This document shows, in pieces, positions 12,768-20,950 of a stretch of 64,000 bases of DNA. The stretch lies in the NCBI RefSeq assembly GCF_018128245.1, contig NZ_CP072378.1, positions 1,302,001 to 1,366,000 on the forward strand, read 5' to 3'. Every line of letters begins with the position of its first letter. Position 1 is the stretch's first letter. The notes under the pieces were generated by a model. It had not been told where the DNA came from. It made no database searches and was given only the letters and a program-made list of their open reading frames with translations. The position numbers and the translations under genes were made by a program. Origin of the DNA: Leptotrichia sp. oral taxon 221. Its GTDB lineage: Bacteria; Fusobacteriota; Fusobacteriia; Fusobacteriales; Leptotrichiaceae.

Positions 12768-13400
12768 TTATCTTCCCCAAGTTTCTGGACTTTTACTCCA
12801 TTCTAAAGCAATTTTTGCTTCTTCATCTGTTAAATAATCAGTATTCGCCAATAAATTGATTAAAACATCAAAATTAGAAAGCGAACTAAATTTGCAATTA
12901 AATTTATCATAATTTTCTTTTGCTGAAGCAAATCCATATGTGAAAATCGATTTAACTTCCATGTCAGAAACACCTTCTTTTTGTAACACATCTACTGCTA
13001 TCAAGCTACTTTTTCCAGTCGTAATCAGATCTTCAATTACAACAACTTTTTTCCCTTGAACTTCTGCTCCTTCGATTTGTTTTCCAGCTCCATGATCTTT
13101 TGGTTTATTTCTAACATACGCCAACGGTTTTTGCATTCTATCCGCAATAAACGCCGCCCAAGGAATACCAGCAGTCGCAACTCCCACAATTACATCCACA
13201 TCTTTATCAATCGCTTCCACAAATCCTTCAACAATCGCATCTCTTTCTTCAGCAAATCCCAATACGAATCTATTATCACAATAAATTGGACTTTTAATCC
13301 CTGATGCAAATGTAAATGGTTCATTTACATTAATTTTTACTGCTTTCACATCAAATAATGCTTTTGCAACTTTTTCTTCCAAACTTAGATTATTACTCAT
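12768..13400 (-). CDS. pyrE: Orotate phosphoribosyltransferase
   Basis: PyrE converts orotate and PRPP to orotidine monophosphate, the fifth step of UMP synthesis. The 210-residue protein has the PRPP-binding loop VVVIEDLITTGKSSL (near 120) and the N-terminal pattern FTFASGIKSPIYCDNR. The catalytic flexible loop carries RNKPKDHGAGKQIEG. Its start lies inside the end of pyrC (8-bp overlap), so the two are probably translationally coupled. The AhpF-like reductase follows. Confidence 0.97.
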   Translation of the reverse strand: MSNNLSLEEKVAKALFDVKAVKINVNEPFTFASGIKSPIYCDNRFVLGFAEERDAIVEGFVEAIDKDVDVIVGVATAGIPWAAFIADRMQKPLAYVRNKPKDHGAGKQIEGAEVQGKKVVVIEDLITTGKSSLIAVDVLQKEGVSDMEVKSIFTYGFASAKENYDKFNCKFSSLSNFDVLINLLANTDYLTDEEAKIALEWSKSPETWGR

Positions 13401-14661
13401 AAAATTCTACTTCCTTTCCGTTTTCTAAATTATCATTAAACTTATTATTTTGATAAACAACTTTACCATTTACTATTGTTAAAACATTTTTCCCCTTTAA
13501 TTTCCAATTTTCATACGGTGTCCATCCACATTTTGACTCAATCGTATCATCCACACCAACTGTCCATTCTTTATCCAAATCAACAGCAATTACATCCGCA
13601 TAATATCCTTCTTCCAATTTCCCTCTTTTTGAGATTTTCATTATTTTTGCAGGATTTTCTGCCATCAATTTTTGAATCATTTCCAATTTAACTTTCCCTT
13701 CATTATATGCATTCAACATCAACGCCAATGAAGTTTCAACTCCAGGCATCCCAAAAGTAATTTTTTCTAGTTTTTCACTAATCAAATGCGGTGCATGGTC
13801 TGTTCCAATCGTGTCAACTTCCCCATTATTCAACGCTTCCCACAAAAATTCATTATCTTTTTTCGTTCTCAATTCAGGTTTCATTCTCAAAAGCATTTTA
13901 TTTCTATCAGTACTCTCTCTAATTTCCTCATTCAAAAACAAATGATGTGGAGTAACTTCTGCATAAACTGGATGTTTTTCTGTATTTAATTCAGAATTTT
14001 TCTTTGCTTCCAATACTTTCTTCAATTCTTCTTTAGACGGAATATGACAAACATAAAGTCCATTTCCATAATTTTTATTATATTCCACCGCCTTATCAAT
14101 CATCTCATTTTCCGCATGAACCAACACAAGTTTAGAATTTTTAAATACATTTTTCAATATATCTTCATCTTCAATCAACATTTCCCCTGTTGTTACATTC
14201 ATAAAGATCTTTACTGTATTTGCTTTCTTCGCTTCAAGCACTTTTTTTATCTCATCAATATTATTATTTCTGCTTCCACCAAAATGAAAACCATAATTTA
14301 CAATTGATTTTTCACTCGCTAATTTTTTCTTATCTTTCAACGCTTCCAATGTCGTAGTTGTCGGAATAGTGTTTGGCATATCATAAAATGTTGTAACACC
14401 TGCTTTTGCACAAGCTCTACTTCCTGTCGCAAAATCCTCTTTTGCCGTAATTCCAGGCTCTCTCATATGAGTATGAACATCTATCACACCTGGCATAACA
14501 GTTTTACCTTTTAAATCAATAATCTCTAATTTCTCATTTTTTCCAATATTTTTAATTTCTTCTTCTGAAAAACCTTCACTAATTTTATCAATTTTATCAT
14601 CCAAAATCAACAATTCAATTTTATTTCCGTGAACATCTTCCCCATCTTTTAAATAGAGCAT
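13393..14661 (-). CDS. pyrC: Dihydroorotase (class I)
   Basis: PyrC cyclises carbamoyl-aspartate to dihydroorotate, the third step of UMP synthesis. The 422-residue amidohydrolase has the metal-binding HxH (GVIDVHTHMREPG, near residue 62). Further metal and substrate signatures are FMNVTTGEM, LVHAEN, VTPHHLFL and TDHAPH. The length fits class I. The ATG is preceded by AAAGGGGAG. A terminator stands between this gene and the exported-protein gene upstream, so pyrC, pyrE and the reductase need their own promoter. A weak TTAATT-17-TATAAA in the gap is the only candidate I see. Confidence 0.96.
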   Translation of the reverse strand: MLYLKDGEDVHGNKIELLILDDKIDKISEGFSEEEIKNIGKNEKLEIIDLKGKTVMPGVIDVHTHMREPGITAKEDFATGSRACAKAGVTTFYDMPNTIPTTTTLEALKDKKKLASEKSIVNYGFHFGGSRNNNIDEIKKVLEAKKANTVKIFMNVTTGEMLIEDEDILKNVFKNSKLVLVHAENEMIDKAVEYNKNYGNGLYVCHIPSKEELKKVLEAKKNSELNTEKHPVYAEVTPHHLFLNEEIRESTDRNKMLLRMKPELRTKKDNEFLWEALNNGEVDTIGTDHAPHLISEKLEKITFGMPGVETSLALMLNAYNEGKVKLEMIQKLMAENPAKIMKISKRGKLEEGYYADVIAVDLDKEWTVGVDDTIESKCGWTPYENWKLKGKNVLTIVNGKVVYQNNKFNDNLENGKEVEFYE

Positions 14662-14805: not shown

Positions 14806-15255
14806 TTATCTTCCTTCTAATTTATCCAACAATCTTTCCATTCTTTCAACTTGTTGTGATTGCAATTGTAATTTTTCATCTAATGTAAGTTTTTTTGCTT
14901 TTTCTTTTCTAGGTTTTACAGTTGTTTTCGTTAAACTAGTTGTTTTTGGTTGTATTCTTTCAACTGGTGCTATTACTGGAGTTGTTACTTCAACTGTTCC
15001 ATCATTAACTTCTTGAGACTCAGTATTTTGAGATACTGGTGCTTCTTCTTGTGTTTGAACTGGTGCTACAACTTCTGCTTTAGTTGCCTCTATATTTTTT
15101 TGATCTCCATCATTTACAAAATTACTAAATGATAATTGTGAAGCACCTTCATATGCTCCATAGATATCTCTATATTTATCATCATTTACAAGATTACTAA
15201 ACGATAATTGTGAAACTAACACACCCATCGCCAAAATTATTACTCTTTTTTTCAT
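14806..15255 (-). CDS. Small exported protein with a duplicated SQLSFSN-VND segment
   Basis: The 149-residue protein has an N-terminal signal (MKKRVIILAMGVLVSQLSFS). The segment SQLSFSNLVND (residues 15-25) recurs almost unchanged as SQLSFSNFVND (39-49); the copies are also similar at DNA level with a 72-bp spacing. The middle is rich in Thr, Val, Pro and Glu and probably extended. The last 25 residues (TLDEKLQLQSQQVERMERLL) form a likely coiled coil. The gene sits between pyrF and pyrC but has its own promoter and terminator, so it is probably not part of pyrimidine synthesis. I do not recognise a family. Confidence 0.7.
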   Translation of the reverse strand: MKKRVIILAMGVLVSQLSFSNLVNDDKYRDIYGAYEGASQLSFSNFVNDGDQKNIEATKAEVVAPVQTQEEAPVSQNTESQEVNDGTVEVTTPVIAPVERIQPKTTSLTKTTVKPRKEKAKKLTLDEKLQLQSQQVERMERLLDKLEGR

Positions 15256-15386: not shown

Positions 15387-16127
15387 TTACAATGCTTCAG
15401 AAATTTCTTCTAATATTTTTTGAGCTGCTTCAGCTGGATTTTCAGCCTTTGTAATTGGTCTTCCGACAACCAAGAAATCTACATTGTTCTTTATTGCATC
15501 ATATGGTGTCATAATTCTATTTTGATCATCGTTACTTTTTCCATCAGCATTTAACGTAAATTTAGGTCTCACTCCAGGACAAACTGTTACAAAATCTTGA
15601 CCCAATTTTTCTTTGATTTTTGCAGATTCTAAAGGTGAGCACACAATTCCGTGCATATTGCTATTTTTCGCAACTGTAGCCATATTTATTACCATTTCTT
15701 CTAAATTCATGCTACTTTTAAACATTTCATTAATATCTTCTTCTGATAAATTTGTAAGCACTGTTACTCCGATTAACAAACTGTCTGAACCGCTTTCTTT
15801 CACTAATTGAGCAACTTCCCTCATTGTTTTGCTTCCATTTGAGCAGTGAATGTTAAACATAAACACATTTTTCTTAATAGCGTTTGCACAAGCCATTTTA
15901 ACTGTATTCGTAATATCATGAAATTTCAAGTCTAAAAACACTTTTTTCCCTTTTTCATGCAAGTACTCAACCAATTTTCCATCAGTACTCAAGTAGCTTT
16001 CCAATCCAACTTTATACATTGAAATATTATCGCCTAATTTCTCCACCAAATTTTTTGCATCTTCAAAATTATTGTAATCCAATGCTACAAATATTTTTTC
16101 TTTCGCTTTTTCATTTATTTTACTCAT
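15387..16127 (-). CDS. pyrF: Orotidine 5'-phosphate decarboxylase
   Basis: PyrF decarboxylates OMP to UMP, the last step of the pathway. The 246-residue TIM-barrel protein has the catalytic DLKFHDITNTV motif (Asp-Lys-His-Asp, near residue 67), ALDYNNFEDAKNLVEKLG at the N-terminus and FLVVGRPIT at the phosphate site near the C-terminus. It is last in the pyrB-pyrI-pyrK-pyrD-pyrF run, 28 bp after pyrD. I see no strong terminator after it. Confidence 0.96.
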   Translation of the reverse strand: MSKINEKAKEKIFVALDYNNFEDAKNLVEKLGDNISMYKVGLESYLSTDGKLVEYLHEKGKKVFLDLKFHDITNTVKMACANAIKKNVFMFNIHCSNGSKTMREVAQLVKESGSDSLLIGVTVLTNLSEEDINEMFKSSMNLEEMVINMATVAKNSNMHGIVCSPLESAKIKEKLGQDFVTVCPGVRPKFTLNADGKSNDDQNRIMTPYDAIKNNVDFLVVGRPITKAENPAEAAQKILEEISEAL

Positions 16128-16155: not shown

Positions 16156-17124
16156 TTATTTTCTATTTTCCAATCTTTTTCTGTATGCAACACCATCATC
16201 TGAATGTGCAAACCCAACAATTTCTGAAATATTTGATAAATTTCTCTCTTCACAATATTTTTGTAATCCTTCTTTTACTTCCAAAGCCACTAATGGATTT
16301 GGAAAAAATGCTGTTCCAAGCGAAATTACAGACGCTCCCGCCAAGAAAAATTCAATCGCATCTTGTGCACTGCTAATTCCACCCATTCCCAAAATCGGAA
16401 TTGACACTGCTTGTGATACTTGATGAATCATTCTCAATGCAATTGGTTTTACAGCTGGACCAGACATTCCACCATAAATATTCCCTAAAATCGGCTTTCC
16501 AGTGTTTATATCAATCGCCATTCCAAGTAAAGTATTTATCATCGAAATCGCATCTGCACCTTCCTCTTCCACAATTTTAGCAATTTCCACGATATTTGTA
16601 ACATTTGGAGACAATTTTACTAATAACGGTTTTTTCGTAACTTTTCGCACTTCTCTAGTTACAAGCCTTGCCATTTCAGGATTTGCACCAAAAGCCATTC
16701 CACCATCTTTTACATTTGGACAAGAAATATTTAATTCCAGCATTTTTATTTCGTCAAGTTTATCCAATCTTTTTGTTAATTCAACATATTGTTCCAACAC
16801 GCTTCCATTAATATTTGCAACAATCGGTACGTTTATATATTTTTTTATTTCCTTCAAAGTATGTTTTTCAAAATAGTCAATTCCAGGATTTTCAAGCCCT
16901 ACACTATTCAACATTCCTGCTGGAGTTTCTGCTATTCTCGATCCCTTATTCCCTGGACGAGGCTCCATAGTAAGCCCTTTTATCACAATCGCTCCCAATT
17001 CATTTGGATCAAAATATTCTTTGTACTCTGTCCCAAATGCAAAACATCCACTCCCTGTAAAAATCGGATTTTCTAAATCTATTCCCAAAAAATTCGTTGC
17101 AAGTCTATTTTTTCTATCTTCCAC
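16156..17124 (-). CDS. pyrD: Dihydroorotate dehydrogenase, class 1B catalytic subunit
   Basis: PyrD oxidises dihydroorotate to orotate with FMN; the 1B form passes electrons through PyrK to NAD+. The 322-residue barrel has the catalytic Cys loop ELNISCPNVKDGG; Cys rather than Ser is the class 1 hallmark. FMN and phosphate signatures include GSGCFAFGTEY, LVKLSPNVT and ILGMGGISSAQDA. It opens with GTG at 17124 inside the end of pyrK, behind AGAGGTGAG. The overlap supports tight coupling of the two subunits. Confidence 0.96.
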   Translation of the reverse strand: MEDRKNRLATNFLGIDLENPIFTGSGCFAFGTEYKEYFDPNELGAIVIKGLTMEPRPGNKGSRIAETPAGMLNSVGLENPGIDYFEKHTLKEIKKYINVPIVANINGSVLEQYVELTKRLDKLDEIKMLELNISCPNVKDGGMAFGANPEMARLVTREVRKVTKKPLLVKLSPNVTNIVEIAKIVEEEGADAISMINTLLGMAIDINTGKPILGNIYGGMSGPAVKPIALRMIHQVSQAVSIPILGMGGISSAQDAIEFFLAGASVISLGTAFFPNPLVALEVKEGLQKYCEERNLSNISEIVGFAHSDDGVAYRKRLENRK

Positions 17125-17950
17125 TCAACTCACCTCTATTCTCATCAAAAATTTCAGCATAAAATACTGGTCCACTCTGACAAACTTTTTTCATTCCATC
17201 TTCAGTCGGTATTGAACATCCTACACAAGCTCCAACACCACAAGCCATTCTCTCTTCCATCGAAACCTGCGAAACAATCCCATTCTCATTTGAAATTTTA
17301 GTAATCAATTCCAACACTTTATGAGGTCCACAAGAATAAATCATATCAATTTTTTCACCTGATGAAATCTCATTTTTCAACAATTCTATCACATTTGCCT
17401 TTTCTCCAACAGTCCCGTCATCGCTACAAATCTTTACTTCAATTCTTTTATCACTTAAATCAAAATTATCTAACATTTTTAATGTTTCTCTATCTCTTCC
17501 ACCTGCAATGAAAATAATTCTCTTATTCTCTTTTTTCTCCAATAATTCCTTCAAAAGTTGCTTCAATGGAGCCAATCCAATTCCACCACCAACAACGACA
17601 ATTTTATCTGAATTTTGAGTCACTGCAAATCCATTTCCTAACGGACCTTGAATATTTATAACATCTCCCAAAGCATAAGTCGTCAATTCTCTAGTTCCTC
17701 TTCCCAAAACTTTATAAAGAAATTCCAATTCCCCAGTCTCATGATCCACACTATGCAAGCTAATTGGTCTTCTCAAAGTCATAATCTCATTCTTCAATTT
17801 CAACATATAAAACTGCCCAGCTTTAGGAACAATCTTACTATCTTGAGTATTTTTCGATTTAACTTTCATCAAAAAATTATCTCCACCAACATATCTATTT
17901 TCTAAAATTTCCACATCTTCCAAAAAATTTGTTTTATGATTATTTTCCAA
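17114..17950 (-). CDS. pyrK: Dihydroorotate dehydrogenase electron-transfer subunit
   Basis: PyrK is the FAD and [2Fe-2S] subunit that links PyrD to NAD+. Visible motifs are the FAD-binding LRRPISLHSV, the NAD-binding VVGGGIGLAPLKQLL and the cluster ligands in ACGVGACVGCSIP plus a later Cys (KKVCQSG). The frame is open further upstream to a TTG at 18019, but that adds about 23 residues that the family lacks. The TTG at 17950 follows AAAGGAAA at good distance and gives the usual N-terminus (NFLEDVEILENR). I therefore prefer a 278-residue product; a TTG at 17968 is also possible. Confidence 0.92.
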   Translation of the reverse strand: MENNHKTNFLEDVEILENRYVGGDNFLMKVKSKNTQDSKIVPKAGQFYMLKLKNEIMTLRRPISLHSVDHETGELEFLYKVLGRGTRELTTYALGDVINIQGPLGNGFAVTQNSDKIVVVGGGIGLAPLKQLLKELLEKKENKRIIFIAGGRDRETLKMLDNFDLSDKRIEVKICSDDGTVGEKANVIELLKNEISSGEKIDMIYSCGPHKVLELITKISNENGIVSQVSMEERMACGVGACVGCSIPTEDGMKKVCQSGPVFYAEIFDENRGELSGR

Positions 17951-18064
17951 TTTTCGTTTCCTTTCCAAATAAATATTTTTCTCTCCTAAAAATTTACTTT
18001 CTTTTATCAAAAATATCAACTAACATTTTCGATTCTCATTTTTTCATTCAAAATTTATCAAAAC

Positions 18065-18535
18065 CTATTTTGTTTTCAACTTAATTTCTTCTTCTGAAAT
18101 TATTCTTTCACAATAATAACACTTATATTTCGTCGTTTCGCTATCCTTCACTCGATTAAATTTCGTATCAATCGCCTCATGATTTGAAATACACTTCAAA
18201 TTATCACATTTCATAAGCCCTATAATTTCATCCAATTTTTCCAATTTCATTTTTTTCACAACTTTATAATTTTCAATAATATTTATTGTCACATTTGGTG
18301 CTACTAAAGAAATCTTGTCAAGCTCACTTTTATCTAACACTTTTTCCTCAATTTTAATAATTCCTTTTCTCCCAAGCGAACTGCTGTGCATATTAGCCGC
18401 CACAGTTATGACTTCGCTATATTCCTTCAAATCCAATATTTCCACTATCGCAAACACTTTTTTTGCTGGAATGTGATCAATTACAATCCCATTTTTTATC
18501 GCTGTTATCTGCAATTCTCTTACATTTTCAGTCAT
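18065..18535 (-). CDS. pyrI: Aspartate carbamoyltransferase regulatory subunit
   Basis: PyrI binds nucleotide effectors and makes the PyrB catalytic trimers allosteric. The product has 156 residues. The N-terminal nucleotide-binding domain begins ELQITAIKNGIVIDHIPA. The C-terminal zinc domain has all four Cys ligands (CDNLKC and CYYC). The ATG at 18535 is preceded by AAGGAG with 6-nt spacing; an in-frame TTG at 18556 lies upstream of that site and is not needed. It follows pyrB by 81 bp, the E. coli pyrBI order, which is relevant to the attenuator upstream of pyrB. Confidence 0.95.
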   Translation of the reverse strand: MTENVRELQITAIKNGIVIDHIPAKKVFAIVEILDLKEYSEVITVAANMHSSSLGRKGIIKIEEKVLDKSELDKISLVAPNVTINIIENYKVVKKMKLEKLDEIIGLMKCDNLKCISNHEAIDTKFNRVKDSETTKYKCYYCERIISEEEIKLKTK

Positions 18536-18616
18536 TTTTTTCTCCTTCAATTCCAAAGACTCATTAATCTATAAAAAAATCAAAATCAATAAATTTACAT
18601 CAATAAAATAAATTTT

Positions 18617-19543
18617 CTAAAAAAATTCTTTTACCTTTCCAAGCACAGTCATCATCATCGCTTGTCTCACAGGTATACCATTTCTAGCCTGTTTGAAGTA
18701 CAACGCATGTTTCGTATCATCCAAATCAGTCGAAATTTCGTCCACTCTAGGCAAAGGATGTAAAATTATCATATCGTCTTTGCATTTTCCTAAAATATTT
18801 TCCTTATTAATAACATAAATTCCCTTCACTTGCTCATAATCCTCAATATCAGGAAATCTTTCTTTCTGAATCCTTGTCATATAAAAAACATCAATTTTAT
18901 CAAGACAATCTCTAAAATCTTCTAAAACCTCATATTTGATATTATTTTTATCCAATTCATCCAATAAATATTGTGGCATTTGTAAAATTTGTGGTGCAAT
19001 AAAATAAATTTTTGGATTAAAGTGAGTCAGTGCTTTTACCAATGAATGAACTGTTCTCCCATATTTCAAATCCCCAACAAATGCAATCTCTAAATTTTCC
19101 AAACTACCTTTTTCTTCCAAAATTGTATATAAATCAAGTAAAGTCTGACTTGGATGTTGATTTGAACCGTCTCCTGCATTAATTATCGCCCTTTTAGAAG
19201 TTTCATCAGCCAATCTAGCCGCACCATCTAAAGGATGTCTCACAACAATCAAATCTGAATAAGCTTCAACCATTTTTATCGTATCCCTAAATGATTCCCC
19301 CTTTTTCAACGACGACTGTTCCACTGGAGGCAATTGCAACACCTGAGCTCCCAATCTTTGAGCAGCTGATTCAAACGACATTTTTGTTCTTGTACTAGGC
19401 TCAAAAAACAATGTCGCTATAATTTTTCCATACAAAAATTTCAATTTCTCATCATCAGGTGTTTCATCGATTTTTCTCGCCAATTCCAAAATATTCAATA
19501 TTTCTTCCTTGCTCATGTCATTCATAGAAATAATACTTTCCAT
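18617..19543 (-). CDS. pyrB: Aspartate carbamoyltransferase catalytic subunit
   Basis: PyrB makes carbamoyl-aspartate from carbamoyl phosphate and aspartate, the committed step. The 308-residue protein has the carbamoyl-phosphate loop FEPSTRTKMSFESAAQRLG (near 52), the 80s-loop signature QSSLKKGESFRDT, the HPSQTLLDLYTI motif and HPLPRVDEI near the C-terminus. The ATG at 19543 is preceded by AGAGAGGAAA. A TTG at 19564 overlaps the end of the terminator-like run and is unlikely. It is the first structural gene after the attenuator. Confidence 0.97.
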   Translation of the reverse strand: MESIISMNDMSKEEILNILELARKIDETPDDEKLKFLYGKIIATLFFEPSTRTKMSFESAAQRLGAQVLQLPPVEQSSLKKGESFRDTIKMVEAYSDLIVVRHPLDGAARLADETSKRAIINAGDGSNQHPSQTLLDLYTILEEKGSLENLEIAFVGDLKYGRTVHSLVKALTHFNPKIYFIAPQILQMPQYLLDELDKNNIKYEVLEDFRDCLDKIDVFYMTRIQKERFPDIEDYEQVKGIYVINKENILGKCKDDMIILHPLPRVDEISTDLDDTKHALYFKQARNGIPVRQAMMMTVLGKVKEFF

Positions 19544-19562: not shown

Positions 19563-19606
19563 AAAAAAAAAGGATAATAAATGTTAATCCTTTATTACTC
19601 CTTTTT
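19563..19606 (-). terminator. Attenuator hairpin before pyrB
   Basis: The RNA segment GGAGTAATAAA pairs with TTTATTATCC (one bulged G), with a 9-base loop, and nine U follow at 19571-19563. The flanking A-run can also pair with the U-run. It starts 5 bases after the stop codon of the leader ORF and ends about 20 bases before the pyrB ATG. This is the layout of a transcription attenuator. Confidence 0.8.
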
Positions 19607-19711
19607 TCATATATAATAACCTTTTTTATTTATAAAATAATCACAAAAAATAGAATTTTTCAACGAAAAAATAATCGTTAGGAATATCTTCATTTTTTCT
19701 ATTTCAATCAT
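19607..19711 (-). CDS. Leader peptide of the pyrB attenuator
   Basis: A 34-codon ORF runs from ATG 19711 to TGA 19607, with GGAG nine bases upstream; another in-frame ATG lies at 19720. The peptide begins MIEIEKMKIFLTIIFSLK and ends NKKGYYI. The second half of the message is very U-rich, with many UUU, AUU and UAU codons. The stop codon is 5 bases from the attenuator stem, so a ribosome ending here would cover its 5' arm. This matches the E. coli pyrBI leader in arrangement, though I claim no sequence homology. Confidence 0.7.
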   Translation of the reverse strand: MIEIEKMKIFLTIIFSLKNSIFCDYFINKKGYYI

Positions 19712-19753
19712 TTTTTCCATCTCCAATCTCTATCCAAAATCTAAATCTGTAAT

Positions 19754-19782
19754 ATGATACCAAATTTTTCTGTTTTTTTCAA
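19754..19782 (-). promoter_or_regulatory. Promoter of the pyrB operon
   Basis: TTGAAA (19777-19782) and TATCAT (19754-19759) have a spacer of exactly 17 bp. The expected transcript starts near 19748, about 37 bases before the leader ATG. It lies immediately past the tdk stop codon. Confidence 0.7.
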
Positions 19783-19792
19783 GAAAAATATA

Positions 19793-20869
19793 TCAAATAA
19801 TTTCATATTTTAATTTCGTTATCTCTTTTATTCTTTCAATGACCTCTTTATTTTCCTTTTCCTCGCTACTATTTTTATAAACCAATTTTTTTAAATTCAA
19901 GTCAACTTTTTTAATCAAATCAACCATCAGCAATATCTGATTAAGCGAACCCTTTTTATTTTTAGAAACAATAATCACTTCTGAATCTTTCCGATATTCA
20001 CACATAAAATCCAACACACTATAATTTCCCTCTATCGGCAAAAGCAACCCACCAGTTATCCTAATAAACACAAAATCATTCTTTAGTAAAGACTTATTAA
20101 CTTTCTCTCTCAATTCAGCCAATTTATCAATTTTCTCTTCAGCATTATCAGAAATATTTGTTTTAATAACAATCGTTGTATATTTCGCTTTCTCAGAAAT
20201 TTCTTTTGAATACATATCTTCCACAATCTTTTTACCAACATTTATTTCTGTACCCGCAATAAAACAAATTTTCCCACGCTTATTTTCACGATAACGAACG
20301 ATATGATGTCTTCTACATCTTGCTTCATAATTTTCTGTAGCTCCTACCATCACAAGCGGATCATCATAATATGCTGGTTTCCCATCTATCAATCTCTGAC
20401 TCGCATAAGCAGGTTTCCCACAAACCATACAAATCGCATGTAATTTATCCACTTGATCAGAAATACTCATTAATTCTGGCATCGGATGATAAGGTTCCGC
20501 ACGAAAACTCATATCCAATCCTGCTACAATAACCCTTTTCCCATATTCAACATACTTTTTACAAAAATTCACAACCTCTTGCCCAAAAAACTGAACTTCA
20601 TCAATCCCAATAACTTCTGCATCAATGTTTTTCTCCATAATCTTATCCATTTCCTCAACAGATGCTACAGGATAAGCCTCCAAACTATCTTTCCCATGTG
20701 AGAAAATCCCATCTTCACCATATCTATTATCAATTCCATGCTTAAAAACAACAATTTTCTGTTTCGCATATTTTGCTCTTCTCAATCGTCTTATCAATTC
20801 CTCACTTTTCCCAGAAAACATGCTTCCTGTCACTACTTCAAGCGATCCCAATCTATTTACTTGCTCCAT
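19793..20869 (-). CDS. tdk: Thymidine kinase fused to a BioD-like P-loop domain
   Basis: Residues 1 to about 190 are a type II thymidine kinase, phosphorylating thymidine in the salvage pathway. It has Walker A GSMFSGKSEELIRR, the FGIDEVQFF-type site (VIGIDEVQFF), and zinc ligands CMVC and CRRHH. Type II kinases normally end here. About 165 more residues follow. They resemble dethiobiotin synthetase (BioD): ICFIAGTEINVGKK, then FIRITGGLLLPIEGNYSVLD, then VIIVSKNKKGSLNQILLMVD. The BioD-like P-loop has Lys where Thr is usual (GKK), and the middle is short, so catalysis by it is doubtful. The ATG at 20869 follows AAAGGA; a TTG at 20884 lies upstream of that site. Confidence 0.9.
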   Translation of the reverse strand: MEQVNRLGSLEVVTGSMFSGKSEELIRRLRRAKYAKQKIVVFKHGIDNRYGEDGIFSHGKDSLEAYPVASVEEMDKIMEKNIDAEVIGIDEVQFFGQEVVNFCKKYVEYGKRVIVAGLDMSFRAEPYHPMPELMSISDQVDKLHAICMVCGKPAYASQRLIDGKPAYYDDPLVMVGATENYEARCRRHHIVRYRENKRGKICFIAGTEINVGKKIVEDMYSKEISEKAKYTTIVIKTNISDNAEEKIDKLAELREKVNKSLLKNDFVFIRITGGLLLPIEGNYSVLDFMCEYRKDSEVIIVSKNKKGSLNQILLMVDLIKKVDLNLKKLVYKNSSEEKENKEVIERIKEITKLKYEII

Positions 20870-20950
20870 TTCATTTCCTTTCAAAAAAATTTCACTTTAT
20901 AAAATACATCAAAAATTTTAATAAAAAACTTACCCTAAAAAAAATTACAT

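Follow-up and report, generated by a model that had tools for sequence, protein, structure and literature searches.

A predicted pyrBI-like attenuator with a U-rich leader reading frame before pyrimidine operons of Fusobacteriota

In many bacteria, pyr operons are governed by PyrR, and transcription attenuation of pyr operons in response to uridine nucleotides is linked to the PyrR element RF00515. At the Escherichia coli rph-pyrE attenuator, translation up to the terminator sets read-through via coupling that is sensitive to uridine triphosphate (UTP). According to PMC4824070, termination in E. coli dropped from about 90% to less than 10% when a stop codon was shifted from 28 to 5 bases before the terminator, and terminators located within the first 100 bases of an open reading frame (ORF) are out of the ribosome's reach unless pausing brings about coupling; PMC5021804 states that tight coupling across pyrL is required to prevent termination at the pyrL terminator. 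Here, we analyzed a stretch of 64,000 nucleotides (nt) from Leptotrichia sp. oral taxon 221 (the window), in which the leader of the pyrB operon is, with a probability of roughly three in four, a translation-coupled transcription attenuator working like that of E. coli pyrBI.

The leader resembles E. coli pyrBI in having a leader ORF, a terminator within reach, a U-containing stretch before the stem, and pyrB as the next gene, and the detector applied to the fusobacterial leaders also recovered E. coli pyrBI itself (start-to-stem distance 88 nt, hairpin −15.3 kcal/mol). It is located on the minus strand between pyrB and a thymidine kinase gene and comprises the following parts:

19777..19782, minus strand: TTGAAA, −35-like hexamer, suitably positioned, the match by itself being not beyond chance
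19754..19759, minus strand: TATCAT, −10-like hexamer, spacer of 17 bases
19721..19724, minus strand: GGAG, ribosome site of the leader ORF
19607..19711, minus strand: leader ORF, ATG at 19711, 34 codons plus TGA (19609-19607); the architecture was found again in relatives
19607..19674, minus strand: U-rich leader segment, the proposed zone of UTP-sensitive pausing (U 0.49 over the 45 nt preceding the stem)
19568..19605, minus strand: predicted terminator hairpin, loop 19584-19589
19563..19571, minus strand: run of nine U, terminator tract

The sequence-only reading of this locus had listed the series from promoter-like site, GGAG, and 34-codon ORF to TGA, hairpin, and nine U before pyrB, and each part was found at the place given, on the minus strand. 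Use of an alternative in-frame ATG at 19720 would lengthen the leader ORF by 3 codons. Folding placed the stem start at 19605; with the GG at 19601 taken as the start instead, the 5-base gap between stop and stem of the sequence-only reading is obtained. The hairpin is A+U-rich and weak (−10.1 kcal/mol for the region, z −3.1, equalled by 1 of 200 dinucleotide shuffles), and it was missed by a simple terminator scan that demands 3 G-C pairs. The full 201-nt leader folded no better than shuffles (z −0.79), and the promoter match by itself did not exceed chance (4 observed, 4.5 expected). The feature set as such was beyond chance: when 92 leader regions were dinucleotide-shuffled, none of the 276 resulting sequences had a hairpin plus leader ORF, even when no U content was demanded.

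PyrB matches at E 1e-60 or better were obtained for 80 of 98 Fusobacteriota genomes, and the upstream DNA was readable for 79. A leader ORF with hairpin stood directly before pyrB in 48 of the 79, as determined with a fixed detector plus corrections by eye. In carA-carB-pyrB operons, chosen by a carB end standing ahead of pyrB, the leader preceded carA in 13 of 13, one of which (G001) is without the U-rich half. The element thus heads the pyrB-bearing operon in 61 of 79 genomes (48 pyrB plus 13 carA-first); relatives lacking the ORF frame or the hairpin had been named beforehand as evidence against the proposal, and frame, U-rich half, stop position, and hairpin recurred in these 61, apart from the U content of G001. 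Leader-bearing records include a Leptotrichiaceae metagenome-assembled genome (G019), Cetobacterium sp. 2A (G062), and Propionigenium maris (G088). In G020 the leader lies directly before pyrB, and in its relatives G016 and G009 carAB stands between a similar leader and pyrB, indicating that the element keeps its position at the operon head through gene insertion or loss.

CarA matches at E 1e-80 were found in 77 of 98 genomes, and 40 further carA genes were examined together with the DNA preceding them. The element was present at 33 of these (31 by script; L115 and L116 by eye); it was missing in the window's own genome, in G029, G017, and G010 of the same family, in G034, and in G087 and G044 (g18). 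The element-less carA genes of f1, only about 44% identical to the query, may represent a different kind of carA. The carA of G093 (L114), counted among the 40 separate ones, is probably the head of a carAB-pyrB operon split over contigs. pyrK was preceded by the element in four g27 genomes, three of which surfaced in the background-control run and the fourth afterwards. As a side observation, the g27 leaders of carA (L087-L093, L114) and pyrK (L287, L089, L090) have GATGTTCC.TAT....GGA in common, read as DVPY(I/V), with the rest diverged; this shared stretch may form a small hairpin that causes pausing or may encode a stalling peptide.

The common anatomy was derived from 87 scored leaders (43 before pyrB, 13 carA-first, and 31 before carA), from which additions made by eye were excluded. 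The 43 remained from 48 pyrB leaders of the script after removal of five ends of upstream genes (L002, L005, L010, L019, L045); five others added by eye (L016, L061-L064) restored the total of 48 given above. Median values were 43 codons for the ORF (25-71), 121 nt from start to stem (74-214), and 33 nt from hairpin end to gene (16-130), and the hairpin had z < −2 in 87 of 87. The detector tolerated stops up to about 15 nt upstream and 60 nt downstream of the hairpin; under this limit, the stop codon fell within the hairpin in 74 of 87 leaders (5′ arm 32, loop 27, 3′ arm 15) and was located upstream of the stem in 8 and downstream in 5. The terminated RNA would thus retain its stop codon in 82 of 87 fusobacterial leaders, unlike in E. 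coli pyrBI, where the stop is found 24 nt downstream of the hairpin. This geometry agrees with the measurements made in E. coli (PMC4824070). In four leaders assigned by eye (L016, L061, L115, L116), the ORF spans the entire hairpin and ends in a stop codon that abuts or overlaps the pyrB or carA start, an arrangement that could give rise to translational coupling.

Mean U content was 0.33 in the first 45 nt of the leaders and 0.56 in the 45 nt preceding the stem, with G decreasing from 0.14 to 0.05; U was at least 0.45 in the last 45 nt in 77 of 87. The corresponding 45 nt of E. coli pyrBI contain U at 0.31. Phe (22%), Ile (16%), and Asn (15%) were frequent among the last 15 codons before the stem. 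Synonymous choice in the last 60 nt compared with the first 45 nt leaned toward U: TCT made up 76 of 127 Ser codons versus 32 of 83, and GTT 37 of 54 Val codons versus 14 of 41 (Fisher p: Ser 0.003, Val 0.002, Ile 0.003, Leu 7e-6), with no such lean in Thr and Gly codons. This indicates that U as such is favored over an amino acid, with the caveat that the leaders are of common ancestry. TTNTTT, which we take to be a NusG-type motif, was not enriched (1.90 per leader versus 3.05 in codon permutations). Pairing of the hairpin 5′ arm with the upstream leader, as expected for an antiterminator, did not exceed shuffles (mean z +0.14; 2 of 87 below −2), and structure ahead of the terminator was weak (mean z −0.97; 16 of 87 below −2), perhaps owing to an A-rich first half opposite a U-rich second half. 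In the promoter scan, 81 of 87 leaders scored 9 of 12, as did 230 of 435 shuffles, so the scan is weak evidence.

Judged by these features, the leaders would have what a pyrBI-type attenuator calls for, namely, a leader ORF with a ribosome site, a hairpin with a U-run, a ribosome within masking reach, a U-rich stretch, and no antiterminator. In the proposed mechanism, the polymerase would start at the leader promoter and a ribosome would load onto the leader ORF. With ample UTP, the polymerase would outrun the ribosome through the U-rich half, hairpin and U-run would form, and transcription would stop before pyrB. With scarce UTP, the polymerase would slow down in the U-rich half, and the ribosome would catch up and arrive at the stop codon, located within the hairpin or immediately upstream of it; the 5′ arm would thereby be masked and the entire pyr operon transcribed. 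We infer that the terminator is used, that the leader ORF is translated, and that UTP is the signal; sensing of UTP in Fusobacteriota is suggested by the U-rich half, the synonymous-site bias, and, among the genes examined, the link to pyrimidine operons. The fusobacterial element, unlike that of E. coli pyrBI, would also serve carA and pyrK operons. Common descent with PyrL is not indicated: PF08052 gave 117 bits with E. coli PyrL as positive control and matched none of 10 fusobacterial leaders, so there is no kinship in sequence; NCBIfam gave no match for the three leaders tried.

The link to pyrimidine operons was assessed with other genes of the same DNA. Across the window and the long loci, a hairpin and leader ORF preceded 19 of 129 ORFs, 17 of which were heads of pyrimidine operons (the window's pyrB, 13 carA, and 3 pyrK), with U at least 0.45 in 15; the two others had U of 0.36 and 0.44. 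None of the 112 other ORFs, including the window's own carA and the pyrR of G045, combined hairpin, leader ORF, and U of at least 0.45. At further loci, 9 of 108 ORFs had hairpin and ORF, and none of the 108 had all three. Outside Fusobacteriota (76 pyrB genes from the best 80 of the scan), hairpin and ORF were found at 7 and U of 0.45 at none. One of the 7, L142 (from an 'uncultured Spirochaetes bacterium'), has a genuine-looking leader with U 0.44. The sequence-only reading had proposed control like that of pyrBI, and this proposal gained support: the element recurs at the heads of pyrimidine operons, and the features of PyrR-dependent or trp-type attenuation were looked for and not found.

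The leader peptide sequence is not kept across genera; what is kept is the open frame, the U-richness, the hairpin, and the stop position. Among closely related leaders (14 groups), gap lengths in pairwise comparisons were multiples of 3 in 27 of 28 cases, and changes were fewest at second codon positions (274 versus 435 and 461; pairwise counts rather than independent events). Codons with one difference were synonymous at a fraction of 0.34, compared with 0.18 expected, where the pairs are not independent and the expectation assumes uniform changes, so transition bias may matter. Covariation was analyzed in 15 distinct hairpins out of 24 listed, taken from alignable-looking pyrB leaders of family f4. 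The helix was paired in 91.9% of cells and contained 21 two-sided cells; none of 500 shuffles was as high in two-sided cells, paired cells, or covariation score.

The genome of L142 and its relatives, presumably Brachyspira, contain 24 pyrB genes at at least 72% identity, and hairpin and open leader were present at 24 of 24 (23 by a relaxed script that did not demand a ribosome site, L237 by eye). In a PyrB tree of 40 rows (15 from Fusobacteriota, 7 of the 24 spirochaete ones, and 18 others), the spirochaete rows formed one clade within Fusobacteriota that grouped with Cetobacterium sp. 2A and three f4 genomes at a support of 100/100. This nesting in a sequence-based tree suggests that pyrB was handed to spirochaetes by transfer, probably together with the leader, as the simplest reading. 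Rfam gave no family over the cut-off at five spirochaete loci. Inspection by eye of L221-L238 revealed a stretch near TTTGGAATTTTTTAAAA that is kept in many spirochaete leaders though their frames differ, and it seems to be conserved as RNA or DNA rather than as peptide. In a more distant genome (G153, L245), a short ORF, hairpin, and U-run were seen by eye before pyrB; the script reported the hairpin and no ORF.

Several observations weigh against a UTP-sensing attenuator of the pyrBI kind. The leader was absent from 18 of 79 Fusobacteriota genomes, namely, from 13 of 13 in genus g3, which belongs to the same family as the window genome, from three in g18, and from two with a diverged pyrB; G001 has ORF and hairpin with U of only 0.16. 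Among permease-family genes (30 loci examined of 63 matches in 16 genomes), 4 had hairpin and ORF and none had U of 0.45, so the element does not mark a general pyrimidine regulon. Based on script-defined stem ends, some groups showed start-to-stem lengths whose differences are not divisible by three, and the spirochaete leaders vary in their frame with respect to the hairpin. PyrR was also found in 22 of 26 spirochaete genomes, with a distance of about 0.7 million bases to pyrB in G114. Two of five covariation measures failed against shuffles (78 of 500 shuffles matched or exceeded the pairs with two-sided changes, and 495 of 500 the further pair types), and the detection thresholds had been chosen after inspection of the sequences.

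Among the alternatives, a translation-coupled attenuator that senses ribosome supply or translation rate, or that relies on a factor-aided (NusG-like) pause instead of UTP, fares best, although we consider it unlikely. A stop codon inside the hairpin would by itself tie read-through to translation, and PMC4824070 describes ribosomal silencing of terminators located a few bases downstream of a stop codon. Such a device is at odds with the U bias at synonymous sites, with the lack of TTNTTT enrichment, and with the absence of the element before the other genes examined. Clearly less probable is an attenuator of the trp type, in which a ribosome stalled at the Phe, Ile, or Asn codons that abound in the final 15 positions would select an antiterminator: pairing of that kind did not exceed shuffles, stalling within the U-rich half would keep the ribosome from masking the hairpin, the genes controlled are those of pyrimidine synthesis, and synonymous choice leans to U as well.

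Attenuation by PyrR, or by another protein or ligand that binds the leader RNA, is very improbable. It would require PyrR and its RNA element, and among the 98 Fusobacteriota genomes PyrR exceeded the cut-off in 3 only, all of them g19; the best match in the window genome reached 28.5 bits versus a cut-off of 138. RF00515 was not found before pyrB in the window or at seven leader-bearing loci, and Rfam detected no other family at those loci and only a tRNA in the window. The sequence-only reading had noted neither pyrR nor a PyrR motif in the window, which holds for the element in the window and extends to the whole genome for the protein. What speaks for PyrR comes from G045 (g19), where pyrR with its element stands before pyrB: it adjoins a diverged pyrB (38% identity) behind an RF00515 element of 51.5 bits (cut-off 54, E 1.1e-5). 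None of the three PyrR-bearing g19 genomes has a pyrB match at E 1e-60, and it looks as if PyrR took the leader's place in g19, a context seen in G045 only. An ordinary terminator combined with an ORF that arose by chance, or a gene for a small membrane protein, is hardly credible despite the hydrophobic second half of the leader peptides and the g18 hairpin that simply trails a larger gene upstream, given 0 of 276 shuffles, a frame kept in close relatives with a peptide not kept across genera, and an element that precedes carA where carA heads the operon. A riboswitch was rejected, as no Rfam family was present at the seven leader-bearing loci or, the tRNA aside, in the window.

At rph-pyrE the translated ORF is a real gene, whereas the fusobacterial system has a short leader, the likeness lying in the coupling. 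An arrangement resembling rph-pyrE was observed in g18 (L038, L045, L057), where the gene upstream of pyrB stops 4-6 nt ahead of a hairpin and U-run and is not U-rich.

The genes behind the window leader are the following:

18617..19543, minus strand: pyrB (ATG at 19543), aspartate carbamoyltransferase catalytic chain (TIGR00670, 389.5 bits)
18065..18556, minus strand: pyrI, regulatory chain
17114..18019, minus strand: pyrK
16156..17124, minus strand: pyrD
15387..16127, minus strand: pyrF
13393..14661, minus strand: pyrC
12768..13400, minus strand: pyrE

The order pyrB-pyrI-pyrK-pyrD-pyrF given by the sequence-only reading was correct as far as it went; the operon is longer, with pyrC and pyrE also downstream (pyrB-pyrI-pyrK-pyrD-pyrF-ORF149-pyrC-pyrE). 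The 149-amino acid ORF between pyrF and pyrC (14806-15255) has a signal peptide-like start, a repeated QLSFSN, and no Pfam match. Just upstream of the leader (19793-20884), the thymidine kinase carries a second, AAA_26-like domain at its C terminus.

Among the matches listed in the open-access literature, no such attenuator was reported for Fusobacteria or Brachyspira, subscription literature being outside the scope of the search. Going beyond the single leader, we tentatively propose, at somewhat less than even odds, a separately evolved and transferable class of nucleotide-sensing attenuators that would be the main control of de novo pyrimidine synthesis in Fusobacteriota. The stop codon would be built into the hairpin, so that a coupled ribosome masks the hairpin fully and the terminated RNA keeps its stop; the element would serve pyrB, carA, and pyrK operons together, would have been passed to spirochaetes with pyrB, and would have been displaced by PyrR in one genus. 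If true, this would explain how pyrimidine synthesis is controlled without PyrR across most of a phylum and would place pyrBI-type attenuation far beyond the gammaproteobacteria. It would also imply tight transcription-translation coupling in Fusobacteriota, for which these leaders would provide a natural reporter.
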